In this document: piece after piece, positions 1,425-61,542 of the stretch
Numbering within the stretch: position 1 is the stretch's first letter
How the letters are laid out: every line of letters begins with the position of its first letter
From: an uncultured Bacteroidota bacterium
GTDB taxonomy: Bacteria; Bacteroidota; Bacteroidia; Chitinophagales; Chitinophagaceae
Length of the DNA stretch: 64,000 nucleotides
NCBI GenBank assembly: GCA_903887415.1
Contig: CAISPO010000018.1
Coordinates: 186,001 to 250,000, forward strand
Direction of reading: 5' to 3'
Notes under the pieces: generated by a model
Seen by the model: the letters and a program-made list of their open reading frames with translations, nothing else
Databases searched by the model: none
What the model was told of the DNA's origin: nothing
Made by a program: the position numbers and the translations under genes

Positions 1425-3341
1425 ATGGCAGATAAACCGACGAAGAAAATAGCACCTAAACCAGCTATTCCGGCAAGGGGCCAGGTGGCGACAGCAAATA
1501 TGAAACAACCGGCGAGGAAGAGTCTTGTATTGCCTTGCCTGCTGCTTGCCATATTTTCGTTTGCATTATATGCAAACACTTTGCAGAATGGGTTTGCACT
1601 GGACGATGTAATGGTGCTTAAGGAAAATACGATCGTTCAGCAGGGCACAAAAGGCATTCCGGAACTGCTGGCTACGCCGCATATGCACGGCTATAGTTTT
1701 TTTTCGCAGGATACCTACCGGCCGCTGCCGCTGGTGCTGCTGGCTGCCGGGTATCAATGCTTTGGAATGAATCCAGGTCCGTTCCACCTGCTGAATATAC
1801 TGTTGTATGCAGCCTGTGTTGTTATGCTGTTCCTTTTTCTCGACCGTTTTTTTGAACGCAAAAAGACAGCCGTAGCTTTTGTGGCATCGCTGCTGTTTGC
1901 GCTGCACCCCATCCATACAGAAGCAGTTGCGAATATAAAAAGCTGCGATGAGCTGCTGTGTTTTTTCTTCGGATTTTTATCCCTGAACTTGTTCACGAGC
2001 TATATGAAACGAGGGCAGGTCGTACAATTGCTCGCAGGGACTGCTTCTTTGTTTATGGCATATTTGTCTAAGGAAACGGTAATAGGGCTGCTGCCGGTCA
2101 TTCTCCTGCTGTTTTTCTTTTACATAAATGAAGACAGAAAGCGGGGGATATTTATTGCCGCCGGCAGCATTGCCGCGACCGTTATTTTCCTTGCTATCAG
2201 GATACATGTGCTCAGCGAATACAATGCAAACCAGGCCTCAGACAGTATAGAGACGTTGGCTATTGCGCCGACTGCTGCAATTAAGATCGCTACTGAAATA
2301 GCGATAATGGGTAAATACCTGCTGCTGCTTTTTGTGCCTTATCCGCTGTTGTGTACTTATGGGGGGAATACAATTCCGTATTCGAGTTTTGCCAGTGCAG
2401 GAGCATGGGCATCTTTGTTAGCGTATATAGCAATTTGCGGGATCGCTGTGACCCGGTTTCTGAAGAATAGGAAAGACCCATGGGCTTTCGGGATATTCTT
2501 TTACCTATGTACGATCTTGCTGTTTTCCAATACGATGTTCCTTATAGCCGGTACGATGGGTGAGCGCTTATTATTTTTTGCGTCTGTGGGGTTTTGTATT
2601 GTTGCTGCGCTTGGTGTTGAGAAGCTGGCAGGGGCGGCTACAGAGGATGTTTTTGTTTTTTTGAAGGCGCCTAAAGTATTGGCGGTGATCATTCCTTTAG
2701 CGCTTTTGTATGGAAGTATGACATTTGCAAGGAATAAGGACTGGGCAGATAACTATAGCCTGTATAAGGCAGATATAGTGAAGGCGCCACACTCGGCTAT
2801 GCTTAATTACTATATAGGCCTGGAACTGGAGACAACTATCGCTGATGCGGCCGGGAAAGACACTGCAAAGCTGGGACAGGTGAGGCGTGAAGGACTGACA
2901 TATCTTACAAAGTCGATCGGGCTGTCGCATGATTTTGCGGACGCGCACGCCACACTGGGCAATACCTACATTATGCTGTCTCAGTACGACTCTGCGGAGG
3001 TGCATGAAAAAAGAGCGCTGGCACTTTCGCCCGGAAGCGAAAAAACCGTGAATAACCTGGCGTACATTTATTACCGCGAAAGAAAATTCCCGGAATCGCT
3101 GGAGTTATCGAAGAAAGCTATAGCGATGAACCGGAATTATGCAAATCCGCATACTAATATGGCCCGTTGTTACTTTGAGCTGGGTAAAACGGATTCGGCT
3201 GTGCTGGCTTTGAACAATGGAATAGCGGCTGATGGCACAAATGCAGCGCCGTATGAATTGCTGGCACTATATTACAGGTCGATAGGAGCGCAAGACTCAG
3301 CGGCTAAGTACAGGGCTTTGCAGCAGAAATGCGGGAATTAA
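1425..3341 (+). CDS. Multi-spanning membrane protein with C-terminal TPR repeats (TMTC/PMT-like)
   Basis: 638 residues. A basic, Pro-rich start is followed by one hydrophobic helix, then a periplasmic loop with an acidic pair (D60-D61 in FALDD), a YRPL motif, and HPIHTEAVANIK followed by DEL. This order of motifs is typical of TMTC-like and other GT-C glycosyltransferases, where the first-loop acids are catalytic. About ten more hydrophobic segments follow to about residue 450. Residues ~485-630 are three to four TPR units (for example NLAYIYYRERKFPESLELSKKA-type helices). The likely role is transfer of a sugar from a lipid carrier at the membrane; the substrate is unknown. The next gene starts 62 bases downstream, so the two may be co-transcribed. 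Confidence 0.8.
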   Translation: MADKPTKKIAPKPAIPARGQVATANMKQPARKSLVLPCLLLAIFSFALYANTLQNGFALDDVMVLKENTIVQQGTKGIPELLATPHMHGYSFFSQDTYRPLPLVLLAAGYQCFGMNPGPFHLLNILLYAACVVMLFLFLDRFFERKKTAVAFVASLLFALHPIHTEAVANIKSCDELLCFFFGFLSLNLFTSYMKRGQVVQLLAGTASLFMAYLSKETVIGLLPVILLLFFFYINEDRKRGIFIAAGSIAATVIFLAIRIHVLSEYNANQASDSIETLAIAPTAAIKIATEIAIMGKYLLLLFVPYPLLCTYGGNTIPYSSFASAGAWASLLAYIAICGIAVTRFLKNRKDPWAFGIFFYLCTILLFSNTMFLIAGTMGERLLFFASVGFCIVAALGVEKLAGAATEDVFVFLKAPKVLAVIIPLALLYGSMTFARNKDWADNYSLYKADIVKAPHSAMLNYYIGLELETTIADAAGKDTAKLGQVRREGLTYLTKSIGLSHDFADAHATLGNTYIMLSQYDSAEVHEKRALALSPGSEKTVNNLAYIYYRERKFPESLELSKKAIAMNRNYANPHTNMARCYFELGKTDSAVLALNNGIAADGTNAAPYELLALYYRSIGAQDSAAKYRALQQKCGN

Positions 3342-3403
3342 AGAGGCTTTGGAAGATGTGGCATGACTTTATTAAATTTATCATTATAACCAAATCAAGA
3401 AAT

Positions 3404-4138
3404 ATGCGTATGAGAAATAATTTCTTCCTGGCCTGCTTGCTGGCGCTGGTGTGCTGTGCATCCTGCGACAATGACAAGGTGATCAAACAAGAGGGCCCGT
3501 CAAGTATTGTGACGCCCACTGTTGGTTCATTTAGTACAATACAGGCGGAGCTGCCGCTAAAGATGTCTGTGACGATACAGAAAGGCGCGCAAGCGGCAAT
3601 TAAGCTCAGGGGGCTTTCTAACATCCTGGATCATATAAAGACTAAAGTTGAAAACAATATACTGTTCATTACATCAGACGTGGACGGCCATGTAAGCATG
3701 GACAGCAAGGATATAGTGGCCGAGGTAACCATGCCGGAGCTTAAGGCGCTTTACTTGTCTTTTTCAGCCAATGCGGAGATACATGGAACAATCAATGAAA
3801 CCGACTTTAAAACAGACATATCCGGGAACAGCACCGTGAGCATTGACGATATAAAAACAGATAAATTCTTCTACAAATCAGTTGGCAATTCAAAACTCGA
3901 TGTGTATAAAGGGACAACGAGGCTTGCGATATTCTCATCGGATGGAGATAATAAAATAAATGCGTATTCGTTACAGGCTACTGAAGCAAATGTGTCTATG
4001 AAAGGGCAGGGAAAATGCGAGATATCGGCTGTAGAAAAGCTGACGACAGATATAGGTTCATCCTGTGCGCTTAGGTACAAAGGCCATCCCAAGATAGCTA
4101 AGAATCCGGAGGGTGGTACCGTTTATGATGCGAATTGA
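3404..4138 (+). CDS. DUF2807 (GIN domain) lipoprotein
   Basis: I chose the ATG at 3404, because from there the protein begins with a short basic stretch, a hydrophobic core and a lipobox ending in CCASC. The longer frame from 3329 overlaps the upstream gene and adds 25 residues ahead of the signal. The mature part, about 220 residues, has the DUF2807 pattern: an opening F...I.AELPLKMSVTIQKG segment, then repeating short strands such as DIVAEVTMPELKALYLSFSA and ISGNSTVSIDDI, as in the right-handed beta-helix 'auto-transporter head' fold of Bacteroidota. It is probably surface or periplasmic; no enzymatic residues are recognisable. A bidirectional terminator follows. Confidence 0.8.
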   Translation: MRMRNNFFLACLLALVCCASCDNDKVIKQEGPSSIVTPTVGSFSTIQAELPLKMSVTIQKGAQAAIKLRGLSNILDHIKTKVENNILFITSDVDGHVSMDSKDIVAEVTMPELKALYLSFSANAEIHGTINETDFKTDISGNSTVSIDDIKTDKFFYKSVGNSKLDVYKGTTRLAIFSSDGDNKINAYSLQATEANVSMKGQGKCEISAVEKLTTDIGSSCALRYKGHPKIAKNPEGGTVYDAN

Positions 4139-4669: not shown

Positions 4670-7600
4670 ATGCGGTCTATACTTGTTTTTACGTGTATTG
4701 TTTTATGCTTTTGGAGCGATGCCGGAGCGCAATTGTATAACCCGGTTCCGAAGCCAGTGAAAGTATCGGATCTGGGCGATAACGCATACCGGAATAAAGA
4801 CAATACTTACTACTGGGGGAACCGCCCTCCCGATGCAGCCTACTGGCAGCAGGATGTACAGTATAAGATGTATGCGCGCATGAAAGAGCAGGATAATGAG
4901 ATACAGGGCGCTGAAGAGCTTACTTACTGGAACAACTCGCCGGACACGCTCACTTTTGTTTACTTCCATTTGTTTCAGAATGCCTTCATTAAGGGATCGC
5001 ACCTGCACGACCTGGAACTGGCCAATCATGTGAAGCCGCGCTTGGGCAAGAAAGAAGCCGCTGGCCTGGGTATAGTGCTTGATAAAATTACCGTTGATGG
5101 TAAGGAAGTGAAAACGGAACTGGACAATACCATTATGAAAATGTACCTGCCTGCTCCGCTACCCCCCGGTGGTAAGGTGGTGATAAAAATGAGCTTCGAT
5201 ACTTATTATGATATGGGCGCTACCCGCCGCAGGATGCAGATGTATAACGCCTGGGGCTTTATGCACTACAATGGCTGCCAATGGTTCCCGAAAATATGCG
5301 TGTATGACCGGATGCATGGCTGGGATACCTACCAGCACCTGAACAGGGAATTTTACGGCGATTTTGGGTTGTATGATGTGACACTGGACTTTCCATCGAA
5401 CTACATACTGGAGGCCAGCGGCGTATTGCAGAACCGGGAAGAAGTGCTGCCGGACACGCTGAGGGCAAAGCTGGACATAAAGAACTTTGCGAATAAAAAA
5501 TGGAACGAACCGCCATCGACTATTATACCTTATCAGCCGGGGAACAGGAAGCAGTGGCATTTTATAGCGAACAATGTGCATGATTTTGCGTTCACCGCAG
5601 ACCCATCCTACCGCATAGGAACTGCACATTGGAAAGGCATAGAGTGTGTGGCTATAGTGCAGGAGCCCCACGCATCGGGCTGGCAGAATGCACCGGGCTA
5701 TATAGCGGGGATCATCCGGACTTTTTCACAGACAATAGGGATGTATTGCTATCCGAAAATAGTGGCAGCAGATGCACAGGACGGTATGGAGTACCCGATG
5801 ATAACTATGGACGGCGGTAGAGAGCCGGGTTACAGGGGGCTGTTTGTGCACGAGATAGGGCACAACTGGTTTTACGGGCAGGTGGGTAGCAACGAAACGT
5901 ACCGTGCGGCAATGGATGAAGGGTTTACACAATTTCTGACATCGTGGGGGCAACGCCTTATAGACGGAGATACGATGATAGCTGCCAAGCCCAAGGGCTA
6001 CCGAGGCATTTTTACAGAGCCAACACTGGTGCTGGACCGCACCATACTCAACAGCTATACCAGCAATGCGCTCAACAAAACCGAGCTGGCGCTGAACACA
6101 CACTCGGATGATTTTCATAGCGCACTGGGACAGGGCGGGGGGTATGGCACTGTGTATTACAAAACGGCATCCATGCTATATAACCTGCAATATGTATTGG
6201 GCGATTCACTGTTTGAAGCAACGATACACCACTATTTTGAGCAGTGGAAATTTGCACATCCATATTTTGAAGACTTCCGTGCATCAGTAATTCAGTTTAC
6301 GCATGTGGACCTGAGCTGGTTCTTTGATGAATGGTTTGAGACAACAAAGACACTTGACTATAGCGTAGGAGGTATTCACAAGATACACGGGACAGATGCT
6401 TACGCTATCAACTTTAAGCGTAAGGGAGAAATGCAGATGCCAATAGATTTTACAGTGACTGCGAAGGATGGGTCGAAGCACAGCTACTACATACCTAATA
6501 CCTGGTTTGAAAAGCAAACAGCAGCGACTAAACTGCCGAAGTGGTACGGATGGGGCAAGCTGGACCCCGAATACACTGCCACGGTGGAGGTACCAGGTGG
6601 CATCAGGAGTGTGCGCATAGACACCACGAACAGGCTGGGCGACCGGGATATGGTGGACAACTATAAAACAAGGGGCCTGTGGGTGAGCCCCCAGGCAGTA
6701 AAAGTGAAGCTGGATGGCGGGCTAGCCAATCCTTTTGACCGGAAGAAATACCGGATGTATATAAGGCCAGACCTGTGGTGGAACCCGATAGACGGCATAA
6801 AAGCAGGGGTTCATTTTGAAGGGGATTATTTGTCTACGCTCAACCGCATAGACGCTACAGTATGGTGGAATACGCATGGGCTGCAGGAAACCAATTACGA
6901 GGCATATAAGGGAGAAGGAACGTACAATAATTATGCGCCCGTGAATTATTCGTTCAATTATCTGTCGCCTATAACGCGCAACATGCCCAAAGTGCAGGTG
7001 CAACTAAACAGCCGGTTCCTTGATGGCCTTTGGTATCACAGAGTGGGGCTAAACTGGCTGGCTAATGAGAGCAATACATTGCAACTCTGGGCACAGACCA
7101 TGTGGCGGCCAACGGTTTCTGATCTTGATTACCTGACAGACCCGGGCGACTGGAGCAGCAGCCCCGGCAGAAAAAATAATTCGCTGAACGCCCAGTGGGC
7201 GCACCACTATAGCTATTTTACCGGAGGAGGCAGGTATTCGTTCAGCTTCCGGGCGCCGTTCCTGGAGAAGGATGAACTACCGTTCACTTATGCCTACGCA
7301 CAAATGGAATCTGTGAATTATAGTTATTTAGGCAGGCTTGAAGTAAGGACAAGGTTATTTGGCCGTTACGGCCTTGGGAACCAATTGCCCTACGAGAGCG
7401 CCCTCTATATGGCTGGAGCGAGCCCGGAGGAGGAAATGGAGAATAAATACACCCGTAGTGTGGGCTTTATACCTACCGATTGGCAAGGTATTTCAAGCAA
7501 TGATGTCAATCATTTTCAGCAGGGTGGCGGCCTGGGGCTCAGGGGCTATGCCGGCTACTTTGCGCCGGATGTGCGCAATGGCAGCGTGCTGGAATCGTAT

Positions 7601-7966
7601 AAAGGACGCAGCGGGGCATCGGCTAATGTAGAACTGGATGTGGAGAACTACATGCCGTGGCGGCCGCGCCTGCTACGCAACTGGCTTCACGCAAGCGTAT
7701 ATGCATTTGGCGATGCAGGCATTATGGAGATGAGCTATTTTGATCCTTCCAATATTTACTTTACTGAGCCAAGTACTATTTGGAGCAGTGTACATGTGGA
7801 CGCCGGAGTGGGATTTGCATTTACTATAAAGAGCTGGGGTGTATTTGAAAAAGCAAAACCACTAACGCTACGCCTTGACCTGCCTATATTCCTGAACAGG
7901 CCCCCATATGGTAATGACCAGTATGCTACGCTGCGCTATGTAATAGGGGTGAACAGGGCGTTTTAG
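4670..7966 (+). CDS. M1 family metallopeptidase with C-terminal Omp85-like beta-barrel
   Basis: 1098 residues with a Sec signal peptide ending near AGAQ. Residues ~60-570 are an M1 (gluzincin) peptidase: zinc motif HEIGH (H394, E395, H398) and third ligand E417 in MDEGF, giving the exact HExxH-x18-E spacing. An Ig-like strand domain follows to ~680. From ~690 to the end the sequence changes to alternating aromatic strands: WNPIDGIKAG (the opening of many Omp85-type barrels), ANVELDVENYMPW, a FGDAG segment, LGLRGY at 956-960 (the conserved Omp85 loop-6 RG[F/Y] motif), and a final strand ending in F1098. I infer a peptidase anchored on, or displayed through, an outer-membrane barrel. There is no POTRA-like region. 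Many M1 enzymes lack any such extension. The M1 call is near certain; the barrel assignment is from motifs only. Confidence 0.93.
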   Translation: MRSILVFTCIVLCFWSDAGAQLYNPVPKPVKVSDLGDNAYRNKDNTYYWGNRPPDAAYWQQDVQYKMYARMKEQDNEIQGAEELTYWNNSPDTLTFVYFHLFQNAFIKGSHLHDLELANHVKPRLGKKEAAGLGIVLDKITVDGKEVKTELDNTIMKMYLPAPLPPGGKVVIKMSFDTYYDMGATRRRMQMYNAWGFMHYNGCQWFPKICVYDRMHGWDTYQHLNREFYGDFGLYDVTLDFPSNYILEASGVLQNREEVLPDTLRAKLDIKNFANKKWNEPPSTIIPYQPGNRKQWHFIANNVHDFAFTADPSYRIGTAHWKGIECVAIVQEPHASGWQNAPGYIAGIIRTFSQTIGMYCYPKIVAADAQDGMEYPMITMDGGREPGYRGLFVHEIGHNWFYGQVGSNETYRAAMDEGFTQFLTSWGQRLIDGDTMIAAKPKGYRGIFTEPTLVLDRTILNSYTSNALNKTELALNTHSDDFHSALGQGGGYGTVYYKTASMLYNLQYVLGDSLFEATIHHYFEQWKFAHPYFEDFRASVIQFTHVDLSWFFDEWFETTKTLDYSVGGIHKIHGTDAYAINFKRKGEMQMPIDFTVTAKDGSKHSYYIPNTWFEKQTAATKLPKWYGWGKLDPEYTATVEVPGGIRSVRIDTTNRLGDRDMVDNYKTRGLWVSPQAVKVKLDGGLANPFDRKKYRMYIRPDLWWNPIDGIKAGVHFEGDYLSTLNRIDATVWWNTHGLQETNYEAYKGEGTYNNYAPVNYSFNYLSPITRNMPKVQVQLNSRFLDGLWYHRVGLNWLANESNTLQLWAQTMWRPTVSDLDYLTDPGDWSSSPGRKNNSLNAQWAHHYSYFTGGGRYSFSFRAPFLEKDELPFTYAYAQMESVNYSYLGRLEVRTRLFGRYGLGNQLPYESALYMAGASPEEEMENKYTRSVGFIPTDWQGISSNDVNHFQQGGGLGLRGYAGYFAPDVRNGSVLESYKGRSGASANVELDVENYMPWRPRLLRNWLHASVYAFGDAGIMEMSYFDPSNIYFTEPSTIWSSVHVDAGVGFAFTIKSWGVFEKAKPLTLRLDLPIFLNRPPYGNDQYATLRYVIGVNRAF

Positions 7967-58553: not shown

Positions 58554-60008
58554 ATGAAAAAATTACTTTTACTCTTAGCGGCAACCGGCGCAATGTACAA
58601 TGCCGGTGCACAGGCCCTCACCCACAGCGGCCCATTCCTTCCGATGAAGACCAAAGCAGACCATGCCATACAACCGGTAAGGTCAAGTTCTATCGGTCAG
58701 CATCATCATGCTCAGCCAAAAAATGATGAAAAAACAACCTCCACATTCAGCCTTTGGTATGAATATGCTGTGTACATGAATACAACAGGTACTGTAGCTG
58801 CATCGTTCCCCTATATGTGGAATGATACGTCTTCGCTTGATGCTTATGGCAATGGCAGCGGCGGTATCGAGTACGATCACAATACCATGGTTTGTATCGG
58901 CACCACATTTGACCCGTATTTTGCCGGCTGGGGAAGCGCTTACAGTGCGTCTGCTGTTTTGTCTCCTACTCAGGCATATACTATAGACTCCGTAGCTGTT
59001 TATGGTGCTTATGGCACTAACCCTGCGAAAACTGGTGTTGTGGACACGCTTATTATAGGCTACTTATATGGTACAGGTTATCATTGGCGCGGCGGCGCAC
59101 CTAGCTCTGATGTGTTTGAAAGTGAATTTGATAATTCATTCGCTTCGTCAGTTCTTTCTGACTATTCTGTAGCAAGCACGGACACTTTATGGTTTCCGGA
59201 AATGATCTATGATAGTGTAACCAATACTGCCAATGGCCTTACATATGGCGAGCAGAAAGTATTGCTTCGCAACGCTTCGGGCGTAGGTACCAATAATTAT
59301 TTTGGCTGGTATGATACCCTCAATGGCGGCACTAACTTTAAGGAAATTGGTCTCACCACACCTATTAATGTGCCTGCAGGTGATGTTGTTGGTTTTTCAA
59401 TTACCTTTAAGACCGGCGACCCATCCTACAATCCTGCTACACTCACTTTAGATACAGTATTTGCTACAGACGGCTCTACTTATGCTAAATATAATTACAA
59501 CATGTGGCGCCCGGAGTTAGTTAACTACGGTACAGCAACCACTCCGTTGTTCTGGACATACAATCCTGCGGATCTTAACGGTGGCTTGTTCAAAGAACTG
59601 CCAAATTACCAGAATGGCTGGGATAACTTATTCCTTCCTAACTATGCATGGACCAGCGGCGGTAATGCAAGTAACTTGCAATATCCTACAATAGACTACC
59701 ATCTTACTGCTACAACAACAACTACTTCAACAGCTACTCCAGCTATAAAGACTGCGGCAAACCAGGTGAAGGTATATCCTAACCCTGCTTCTAATGTAGT
59801 TACTGTTGCTTACAAATTGGGCGCAGCTGCTAACGTATCTGTAACGCTTACAGATATGCTGGGCCAGGTAGTTGTTACTCAGAATATTGACAACAGCAGC
59901 GAGGGTAAAGCTACGATCAACACATCTGGTCTTGCAGCCGGTATTTATCTTTATACTGTTATTGCTAACGGCGAGCACACTACAGGGCGCGTTGTTATTT
60001 CGCACTAA
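58554..60008 (+). CDS. Type IX secretion cargo protein, first of a tandem pair
   Basis: 484 residues. Signal peptide (MKKLLLLLAATGAMYNAGAQ). The C-terminal ~80 residues are a type A sorting domain: VKVYPNPASNVVTVAYKL, VSVTLTDMLGQVV, LAAGIYLYTVIANGEHTTGRVVISH. It is therefore exported through the T9SS and probably attached or released at the surface. The ~370-residue body has aromatic/Asp-rich strands (YMWNDTSSLDAYGNG, FDPYFAGWGSAYS) but no family I recognise. A candidate TACCTTTA element is at 58511-58518. A paralog follows. Confidence 0.88.
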   Translation: MKKLLLLLAATGAMYNAGAQALTHSGPFLPMKTKADHAIQPVRSSSIGQHHHAQPKNDEKTTSTFSLWYEYAVYMNTTGTVAASFPYMWNDTSSLDAYGNGSGGIEYDHNTMVCIGTTFDPYFAGWGSAYSASAVLSPTQAYTIDSVAVYGAYGTNPAKTGVVDTLIIGYLYGTGYHWRGGAPSSDVFESEFDNSFASSVLSDYSVASTDTLWFPEMIYDSVTNTANGLTYGEQKVLLRNASGVGTNNYFGWYDTLNGGTNFKEIGLTTPINVPAGDVVGFSITFKTGDPSYNPATLTLDTVFATDGSTYAKYNYNMWRPELVNYGTATTPLFWTYNPADLNGGLFKELPNYQNGWDNLFLPNYAWTSGGNASNLQYPTIDYHLTATTTTTSTATPAIKTAANQVKVYPNPASNVVTVAYKLGAAANVSVTLTDMLGQVVVTQNIDNSSEGKATINTSGLAAGIYLYTVIANGEHTTGRVVISH

Positions 60009-60162: not shown

Positions 60163-61542
60163 ATGAAAAAACTACTTTTACTCTTATCAGCCGCTGCCAT
60201 AACCTGCGCTGCGGATGCCCAGCAAAGAGCTCAAAGCATATTATTCAGCGACAACACCGGCCGTATAGCCACAGCTACTCAACCCCCAATGGTTGGCGCA
60301 ACCACAACCCTGGGCCATCTGCGGGGAGCGTCAGGCAATGCCAGGACAACTTCTACCCCAACCAGCAGATGGTATAAGTACACAGATTATCTTACTGCCA
60401 ACTACACTACGGCTGTTTCCGGCACATACCTGTGGAATGATACCACATCTGTAGATGTTTATACTGGCGCTACCGGCAATGAGTATCTTTTTAATACTAT
60501 TGTATCTGTAGGGCTTGTCTGCGATCCCTTTGTAGCTGGCTGGAATGACCCGCTCGCCTATCCCGGTGAGATGGAACTGACCACCGGAAGCGATTATACC
60601 ATTGATACCGTATATATTCATGGTACGTACTACCGCAATGACGCAAAACCAGACCCGGTGGATACGCTGAACCTGGCGCTGATATACGGAGATGGATCAT
60701 TGTCCTCCGATCTTCATGCTGTGGCTCGTGACACAATAGGCAATCAATGGATATATACGGAGTATGGTGTCGATACCCTGCATTATATAAGGATGCCGTA
60801 TGACAGCGTTGACAACCGAGCCGATACCTTCCAGGGCGGTATAACGCCTGTGCTTAGCCAGCTATTATTAAAATCCGGAGATACAGCGCTCAATTATGAG
60901 GCATACATCCCTATGTCCATCAGCGTACCGGCAGGCGGCAACATGCCGGCCCTCTCCCTGACATTTAAAAGCGGAGATGCTTCATTTACTTTTGGTGATA
61001 CCGTATTTACAGGCGTTACAGGCGCTCTGTATAAATATGGTATGTTCCGGCCGGCGTGCGTTTACCAGACTTCAGGCGGAACGACAGCGACTTTCCCAGC
61101 AAACACCTCATCAGATCAAAACCAGGGGCAATTCAGATATGGCGGGTACAACGCGCCGCACCATCTTTATACCCCGCAGTGGTTCTGGACATCAGGCGCA
61201 GGCGGCGCCGCTCAGCTTCAGTACCCTGACTTTGCATTTCATGTTAACTGCGCAACCTGTGATGTGGGGACGAAAAACCTGCAGCAGCCGGTGACAGCGG
61301 CAACCGCTGTTCCTAACCCGGTGAATAACCTGGTAAGCATCAACTTCACTTTAGCGACGGCTGCTGATGTTGCCGTGTCGCTCACAAACGTTATAGGCCG
61401 GGTAGTGGCTGTTGAAAATATGGCTAACGTAAGCAGCGGTAAGGCTTCATTCAATACATCCGCGATGCCGGCAGGTGTTTATTTTTATACTGTAACAGCG
61501 AATGGCGAGCGCAAAACAGGCCGTGTGGTAATTGCGCATTAA
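60163..61542 (+). CDS. Type IX secretion cargo protein, second of a tandem pair
   Basis: 459 residues. Signal peptide (MKKLLLLLSAAAITCAADAQ). It shares the order of features with its upstream neighbour: a WYKYTDY/WYEYAVY strand, YLWNDTTSVDVYTG, a CDPFVAGWND segment, TIDTVYIHGTYY, and the type A sorting domain AVPNPVNNLVSINFTL, AVSLTNVIGRVV, MPAGVYFYTVTANGERKTGRVVIAH. The body has no family I recognise. The pair clearly arose by duplication and has since diverged strongly, more in the body than at the ends. Confidence 0.88.
   Translation: MKKLLLLLSAAAITCAADAQQRAQSILFSDNTGRIATATQPPMVGATTTLGHLRGASGNARTTSTPTSRWYKYTDYLTANYTTAVSGTYLWNDTTSVDVYTGATGNEYLFNTIVSVGLVCDPFVAGWNDPLAYPGEMELTTGSDYTIDTVYIHGTYYRNDAKPDPVDTLNLALIYGDGSLSSDLHAVARDTIGNQWIYTEYGVDTLHYIRMPYDSVDNRADTFQGGITPVLSQLLLKSGDTALNYEAYIPMSISVPAGGNMPALSLTFKSGDASFTFGDTVFTGVTGALYKYGMFRPACVYQTSGGTTATFPANTSSDQNQGQFRYGGYNAPHHLYTPQWFWTSGAGGAAQLQYPDFAFHVNCATCDVGTKNLQQPVTAATAVPNPVNNLVSINFTLATAADVAVSLTNVIGRVVAVENMANVSSGKASFNTSAMPAGVYFYTVTANGERKTGRVVIAH

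Follow-up and report, generated by a model that had tools for sequence, protein, structure and literature searches.

A predicted outer-membrane M1 zinc peptidase built on a POTRA-less Omp85-fold barrel in Bacteroidota

We analyzed a stretch of 64,000 nucleotides (the window) from an uncultured bacterium of the Chitinophagaceae, order Chitinophagales, phylum Bacteroidota (assembly GCA_903887415.1, contig CAISPO010000018.1, positions 186,001 to 250,000). An open reading frame (ORF) at window positions 4670-7966 on the forward strand starts with ATG, encodes 1098 amino acids (aa), and was confirmed as real. Along the chain, a Sec-type signal is followed by an M1 zinc peptidase (PF01433) and then directly by a 16-stranded Omp85-fold barrel (Table 1). 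The signal peptide, read by eye in the translation, has no lipobox, and the N-termini of relatives are similar to it. These features are not due to chance, since relatives have them at matching alignment positions. An original prediction, made from the letters alone, had proposed an M1 peptidase fused to an Omp85-type barrel; sequence comparison and structural modelling now strongly support an M1 peptidase on a 16-stranded barrel of the Omp85 fold that lacks POTRA domains.

In a Pfam scan of the protein up to E 10, PF01433 matched residues 392-555 (37.5 bits; cut-off, 27.7) and nothing else was found, and NCBIfam gave M1 models only, all far below their cut-offs. The zinc site has the pattern HExxHx18E (HEIGH at 394-398, E417), as had been predicted, and H394, E395, H398, E417, E374, and Y496 were invariant in profile A5, an alignment of 14 relatives. 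GMEYP, which we take to be the counterpart of the aminopeptidase motif GxMEN, stands where the latter is expected, with Glu kept and Asn replaced by Tyr; Y496 is presumably the catalytic Tyr, as assumed from other M1 enzymes. Against the PDB, A5 matched 98 sequences at E ≤1e-3, of which the 60 listed were aminopeptidases, leukotriene A4 hydrolase, and tricorn-interacting factor F3, the sole exception being 4gaa ("MGC78867 protein"). The best among the matches listed was the cold-active aminopeptidase 3cia (ColAP; E 9.4e-16), and leukotriene A4 hydrolase (1gw6) was matched at E 1.4e-14; both alignments spanned profile positions 325-521. These two are soluble enzymes that share the M1 catalytic core with the window protein and have no barrel. 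Residues 560-666 align to the ends of two M1-only proteins, L176 and L178 (reaching tail-profile position 107), and are therefore assigned to the M1 module. The data strongly support an M1 zinc peptidase with intact active-site motifs, for which catalysis is predicted.

Table 1. Features of the M1-barrel protein in the window
Feature	Coordinates (strand)	Description
Sec-type (signal peptidase I [SPI]-like) signal peptide	4670..4729 (+)	Residues 1-20, cut before Q21, predicted by eye
M1 peptidase module	4802..6667 (+)	Residues ~45-666, of which about 560-666 form a beta-rich C-terminal domain
GMEYP motif	5783..5797 (+)	Residues 372-376; E374 invariant in A5
HEIGH, zinc-binding and catalytic motif	5849..5863 (+)	Residues 394-398; H394, E395, and H398 invariant in A5
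E417, third zinc ligand	5918..5920 (+)	Motif position, invariant in A5
Y496, likely catalytic Tyr	6155..6157 (+)	In VYYKT at 495; invariant in A5
Omp85-fold outer-membrane barrel	6668..7963 (+)	Residues 667-1098; model of 560-1098, Foldseek, VIA-align, hhalign with controls
LRGY, loop-6 motif	7538..7549 (+)	Residues 957-960, loop between strands 11 and 12
E988	7631..7633 (+)	Strand 12 of the model; invariant in 83/83 family and order members
FGDAG (F-x-D-x-G motif)	7706..7720 (+)	Residues 1013-1017, strand 13

The barrel half was modelled with AlphaFold2 (AF2) from an alignment of 43 rows covering residues 560-1098, with a mean predicted local distance difference test (pLDDT) score of 72.3 and a predicted template modelling (TM) score of 0.65; a single-sequence model of residues 671-1098 was discarded (pLDDT 30). 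Sixteen barrel strands were counted from the DSSP elements of the model: in model-local numbering, eleven in 135-343 and, after a 79-residue loop, 423-433, 447-466, 483-494, 506-516, and the C-terminal 527-536. Local 469-479 was read as an extension of loop 7; counting it as a strand would give seventeen. Both Foldseek and VIA-align returned solely Omp85 entries among the 50 matches listed for each. The first strand begins at about residue 694, so that the linker from the M1 module is ~28 residues. LRGY, expected ~140 residues before the end, sits 142 residues ahead of the C-terminal end, is followed by VELDVENYMPW and then FGDAG, and the last residue is the anticipated Phe. We take the positions of LRGY, E988, and FGDAG to be the sites of the loop-6 Arg, the Glu, and the Asp of BamA, and R958, E988, and D1015 to correspond to the polar triad of Omp85 proteins, as assumed from BamA.

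Homology was assessed by hhalign between profile A3 (51 diverse barrel rows, among them distant fusions and barrels that stand alone) and an Omp85 alignment. For the latter, 30 places matching PF01103 were taken from eight genomes, and at each the C-terminal 430 residues of the central ORF were used. The comparison gave 96.7% (E 3.5e-10), against 0.5% for the reversed Omp85 alignment and 0.0% for an M1 alignment. Since one of the 30 Omp85 rows, L192, itself matches the barrel profile (E 1.2e-8), a comparison without that row is also given, and it scored 96.5% (E 9.8e-10; profile positions 102-397). Profile A4, which holds fused barrels only, reached 96.0% (E 4.4e-9). Other outer-membrane barrels scored 0.5% (seven FadL-like) and 0.4% (nine PorP/SprF-like) against A3. 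Pfam gave no Omp85 match in 52 close members and one in 51 diverse members, namely, L155, a distant M1 fusion whose barrel passes PF01103 (27.2 bits; cut-off, 24). When PF01103 was run on 10 barrel stretches, both L155 stretches matched and the other 8 (six from M1 proteins, two from stand-alone barrels) did not; in the whole L155 protein (as L215), PF01433 was found at E 2.4e-13 and no PF01103 was listed at E 0.1. L192 (G393:C5:812589-813203) is a PF01103 protein (81.8 bits) in a 768-aa frame and possibly a sequence link between the M1-type barrel group and other Omp85 proteins.

Could the C-terminal half be a porin-like or other barrel, or a beta-rich M1 accessory domain, that merely resembles Omp85? 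Several results speak for this and against an Omp85 fold. The window barrel has no Pfam match even at E 10, PF01103 included; PDB sequence searches with the barrel, singly or as a profile, found no Omp85, and neither Pfam, NCBIfam, nor the PDB gave a notable sequence match for the C-terminal 430 residues. The close-family profile alone reached only 45.1% and 49.9% against Omp85, so that the deeper profile was needed. Foldseek TM-scores were modest (0.29-0.40, by query), and the loop 6 region (local 368-404) falls below pLDDT 50, which leaves the placement of loop 6 weakly modelled. Set against these points, the model, the two fold comparisons, the profile homology, the conserved motifs, and the PF01103 match of L155 jointly oppose a non-Omp85 origin, and two other outer-membrane barrel families scored ≤0.5% where Omp85 scored 96%; we consider such an origin very improbable. 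The barrel is a homologous Omp85-fold domain and not a curated PF01103 member. The original prediction of an Omp85-type barrel thus stands on the alignment-based model, the two fold comparisons, the controlled profile comparison, and the L155 match; it was to be dropped if no 16-stranded barrel or a non-Omp85 match emerged, and 16 strands and Omp85 matches were found.

Of the features by which Omp85 proteins are defined, a 16-stranded barrel of the BamA/TamA/Sam50 fold was found (model, two fold comparisons, profile homology), as were two motifs at their proper strands, (V/L)RG(F/Y) of loop 6 (LRGY957) and F-x-D-x-G (FGDAG1013). Pfam found no POTRA match in the window protein, and a POTRA domain has no room because the M1 module runs to 666 and the first strand begins at ~694. 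The protein thus departs from the definition in the abstract of PMC11116518, which includes POTRA domains; PMC4104836 counts POTRA-less members in the Omp85 superfamily.

We assessed how far the fusion extends among related genomes. In the window's family, all 60 genomes matched some part of the protein and 12 matched the barrel (11 full-length fusions and 1 contig-edge fragment). In the order, 74 of 149 genomes matched the barrel profile, 68 of these with a frame open for 900 aa or more at that place (hand count). Of 30 order loci examined, one is the window's own, and an M1 match was present in each of the remaining 29, with the zinc motif in 28 and one truncated. Across the phylum, profile A1 matched 48 of 296 genomes and A4 matched 48 of 198, by construction at L116, L147, L149, L150, L152, L153, L155, and L156, with which A4 was built. 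By hand count, the open frame reaches at least 990 aa in 22 of the 48 A4-matching genomes, and the other 26 have only frames of 400-497 aa. Eighteen loci from the A4 search comprised 16 with M1 and barrel, one of them a 497-aa fragment, and 2 with M1 only at E 1e-3. A search of other Bacteroidota for this architecture, suggested with the original prediction, showed M1 fused to the barrel in 14 families beyond the order (the family of the 497-aa fragment excluded). A named genome collection added 49 loci, all with Bacteroidota titles, including Taibaiella lutea and Flavipsychrobacter stenotrophus.

Residue conservation differed between the two halves. The zinc motif HExxHx18E was present in 106 of 109 nonidentical fused proteins, the remaining 3 being cut at the 5' end. 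R958, G959, E988, F1013, and D1015 were invariant in 54/54 family and 29/29 order members, the window's own included. In 26 distant fusion rows (L150 and L236 among them are one gene from overlapping loci), where the alignment is less certain, 5 rows have R, 5 have E, and 7 have D. As aligned, the enzyme site does not vary among the fusions, and only near relatives retain the Omp85 triad. L249-L252, L257, and L259-L261 are fusions that read PVAY at the position of the loop-6 RGY and have an intact zinc motif.

The history of the fusion was examined in an M1 tree of 74 chosen rows (quick search, midpoint root; 17 loci of an earlier 61-row tree dropped and 30 added). M1-only proteins, of 614-698 aa in the window's family and of 628-647 aa in another family, f43, branch inside the fusion series, the forks that nest them having Shimodaira-Hasegawa-like approximate likelihood ratio test (SH-aLRT) values of 98, 94, 99, 99, and 89. 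Because M1-only proteins branch inside the fusions, barrel loss is the simpler reading, and on this tree we favor one ancient fusion with later loss of the barrel. Stand-alone homologues of the window barrel, of about 400-470 aa, occur in other Bacteroidota families, and their matches lie mostly in f43. In 16 genomes searched for M1, which had been picked for holding a stand-alone barrel, all 12 f43 genomes carried a barrel-less M1 protein of 628-647 aa and separate barrels of 411-459 aa. The idea that such separate M1 and barrel genes in f43 represent the two parts of a split fusion ("Rosetta stone") was not adopted, as G303 and G217 hold both a fusion and a stand-alone barrel. In a barrel tree built without the second subfamily described below, some near-duplicate rows, and L153 and L156, which are long, the stand-alone barrels group beside the fused barrels of the order (SH-aLRT 96), and a single clade of all fused barrels was not rejected (approximately unbiased test, p-AU 0.278). 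Stand-alone barrels of 425-465 aa were located at L139:5340-6614, L146:4680-5981, L151:4996-6390, and L157:4993-6369, and a tandem pair at L158 (3769-5082 and 5144-6466); no M1 ORF was found in the 11-12 kb around the barrels of these five loci.

The genome of the window also encodes a second M1 protein (L159:1882-4938, in G000:C3) of 1019 aa with a C-terminal beta-rich part. In an alignment of 15 family loci of this second subfamily (proteins of 947-1050 aa), the tails scored 95.8% (E 7e-9) by hhalign against A3, 1.3% against the close-family profile, and 1.1% against general Omp85. A more diverged M1-barrel lineage, judged by these profiles, probably coexists with the main one.

Among known systems, PlpD of Pseudomonas aeruginosa, a patatin-like Omp85 protein of type Vd, likewise joins an N-terminal hydrolase to a C-terminal 16-stranded Omp85 barrel in one chain, and protease access and disulfide tests place its enzyme domain in the periplasm (PMC11116518). 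The window protein differs in having an M1 zinc peptidase in place of the patatin-like domain, no POTRA, and a Bacteroidota host; type Vd proteins carry a patatin domain and POTRA before the barrel, and PF01433 alone was matched here. PF00149, a phosphoesterase family, gave no match in the window protein up to E 10. That family defines the "Metallo" group among the ten Omp85 subfamilies of Heinz and Lithgow (2014; PMC4104836), where WD40, "Metallo," and "noNterm" stand outside the list of POTRA-bearing groups. The "Metallo" group is alike in placing a metal-dependent hydrolase before an Omp85 barrel; its domain is termed "metalloprotease" in that paper, whereas the window protein has PF01433 with a zinc peptidase motif. 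For this group the authors discuss quality control in the periplasm and export to the surface as competing roles, and neither "Aminopeptidase" nor "PF01433" occurs in the main text. The "noNterm" proteins of the same paper, likened here by description only, are barrels without an N-terminal extension, as are our stand-alone homologues, and differ from the fusion in having no enzyme domain. The BamA proteins of Porphyromonas gingivalis, Flavobacterium johnsoniae, and Bacteroides thetaiotaomicron have POTRA domains and an insertase role and show 12-13% identity; loop 6 of F. johnsoniae BamA reads LRGY (PMC12611786). We found no description of an M1 peptidase-Omp85 barrel fusion in the open-licence PMC literature. 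The fusion is widespread in the phylum and undescribed in that literature, and it most likely adds a new pairing of enzyme and barrel to a superfamily in which enzyme fusions are known.

We favor, with a probability of about 0.6, an outer-membrane-anchored, periplasmic single-chain M1 metallopeptidase whose barrel serves as anchor and positioner. Sec would export the chain, and the beta-barrel assembly machinery (BAM) would insert the barrel; with the N-terminus of the first strand on the periplasmic side, the folded peptidase would hang beneath the outer membrane and trim or degrade peptides, for which we propose fragments of misassembled outer-membrane proteins or peptides from outside. The barrel would derive from an ancestor that acted in outer-membrane protein assembly, with the ancestral loop-6 triad retained in the window's order, and its constant role across the phylum would probably be anchoring and positioning of the enzyme. 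Judged from the model and by analogy, the enzyme most likely lies at the periplasmic face of the outer membrane and not on the cell surface. In the AF2 model, loops opposite the N-terminus average 21 residues and the N-terminal-side turns average 6, and the long loops point away from the M1 domain. The long-loop side of outer-membrane barrels faces outward, and the position of these loops opposite the N-terminus therefore favors the periplasm. So do the closest M1-only relatives, which by eye have ordinary signal peptides and end directly after the M1 module, and the periplasmic enzyme domain of PlpD (PMC11116518). Other findings pull away from a periplasmic anchor: the model spans 560-1098 only, so that the side on which the M1 domain lies is inferred; a second barrel-less M1 clade (L238, L240-L245) looks lipoprotein-like by eye, so that not all M1 relatives are soluble periplasmic proteins; and the triad R958/E988/D1015, present in 83/83 near relatives, exceeds what a mere anchor should need.

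The original prediction had read such a fusion as a surface-tethered or self-exported protease, by analogy with type Vd proteins; in this scheme the barrel, or an assembly intermediate, would pass the M1 domain outward to digest environmental peptides. FhaC, of the same superfamily, translocates proteins (PMC4104836), the ~28-residue linker might just span the barrel, and the loop-6 triad is complete in family and order. This reading is not supported: the enzyme domain of the proposed analogue PlpD is itself periplasmic (PMC11116518), POTRA is lacking, and the nearest M1-only relatives have ordinary signals and manage without an attached barrel; moreover, loop 6 is expected to fill the lumen through which an enzyme of 600 residues would need to travel, and the loop-6 Arg is absent from 21 of 26 distant fusion rows in which the fusion is retained. 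We regard surface display as unlikely. To about the same low degree we credit an assembly or quality-control machine, in which an insertase-like barrel gate is served by a peptidase that clears stalled clients. M1 enzymes are mostly exopeptidases and would be unsuited to whole misfolded barrels; there are no POTRA domains for client reception, the triad is not kept in most distant fusions, and no conserved neighbor gene of any kind was found. What speaks for such a machine is the triad invariant in near relatives, together with the Escherichia coli periplasmic Zn-metallopeptidase BepA, which acts on LptD at BAM (PMC8423444) and whose job would here be done in one chain, and the periplasmic quality control proposed by Heinz and Lithgow for another Omp85-hydrolase fusion (PMC4104836). 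A more speculative version, doubtful in our estimate, is a single-chain protease-gate, an active POTRA-less barrel exchanging unfolded outer-membrane or exported polypeptides with the tethered peptidase. The order might then keep the full loop-6 triad because its barrel is an active gate and, no more probably, the gate might elsewhere have decayed to an anchor or been lost, yielding the barrel-less M1 proteins of the window's family and f43. If true, barrel assembly would have a proteolytic checkpoint, or the cell a device for peptide import, of a kind for which we found no description.

Before the periplasmic location of PlpD was demonstrated (PMC11116518), hydrolase-Omp85 fusions had been regarded as export devices. 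An outer-membrane-anchored periplasmic M1 peptidase would add an unrelated class of enzyme to this scaffold and favor a view of Omp85 barrels as general mountings by which periplasmic enzymes are held at the outer membrane. Proteins with the triad kept, the triad lost, and the barrel lost form a natural series that could probe the role of loop 6 without POTRA. Automatic annotation based on Pfam and NCBIfam would see the M1 half only and so miss the outer-membrane location.

Another protease-like Omp85 architecture was seen in proteins of 958-1076 aa (L209, L211, L216, and L217; also L210, L212, L213, and L218). These have HExxH near residue 138-170, a PD40 propeller in the four scanned, and, in the genome search, a C-terminally placed PF01103 match (below cut-off in L213); PF13485 (Peptidase_MA_2) was above cut-off in L216 and L217 and below it in L209. 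The group resembles the "WD40-Omp85" proteins of PMC4104836, for which we found no peptidase mentioned there.

No neighboring gene was conserved across 49 loci (39 with more than 1.5 kb upstream, 39 downstream), and the idea of an operon was rejected because the commonest shared neighbor occurred in only 7 of them. That neighbor is the upstream gene at window positions 3329-4138, with relatives upstream in 7/49 loci; we take its product to resemble a DUF2807 (GIN-domain) lipoprotein-like protein. Elsewhere in the window, 58554-60008 and 60163-61542 encode adjacent, similar secreted proteins whose C-termini look, by eye, like type IX secretion sorting domains.

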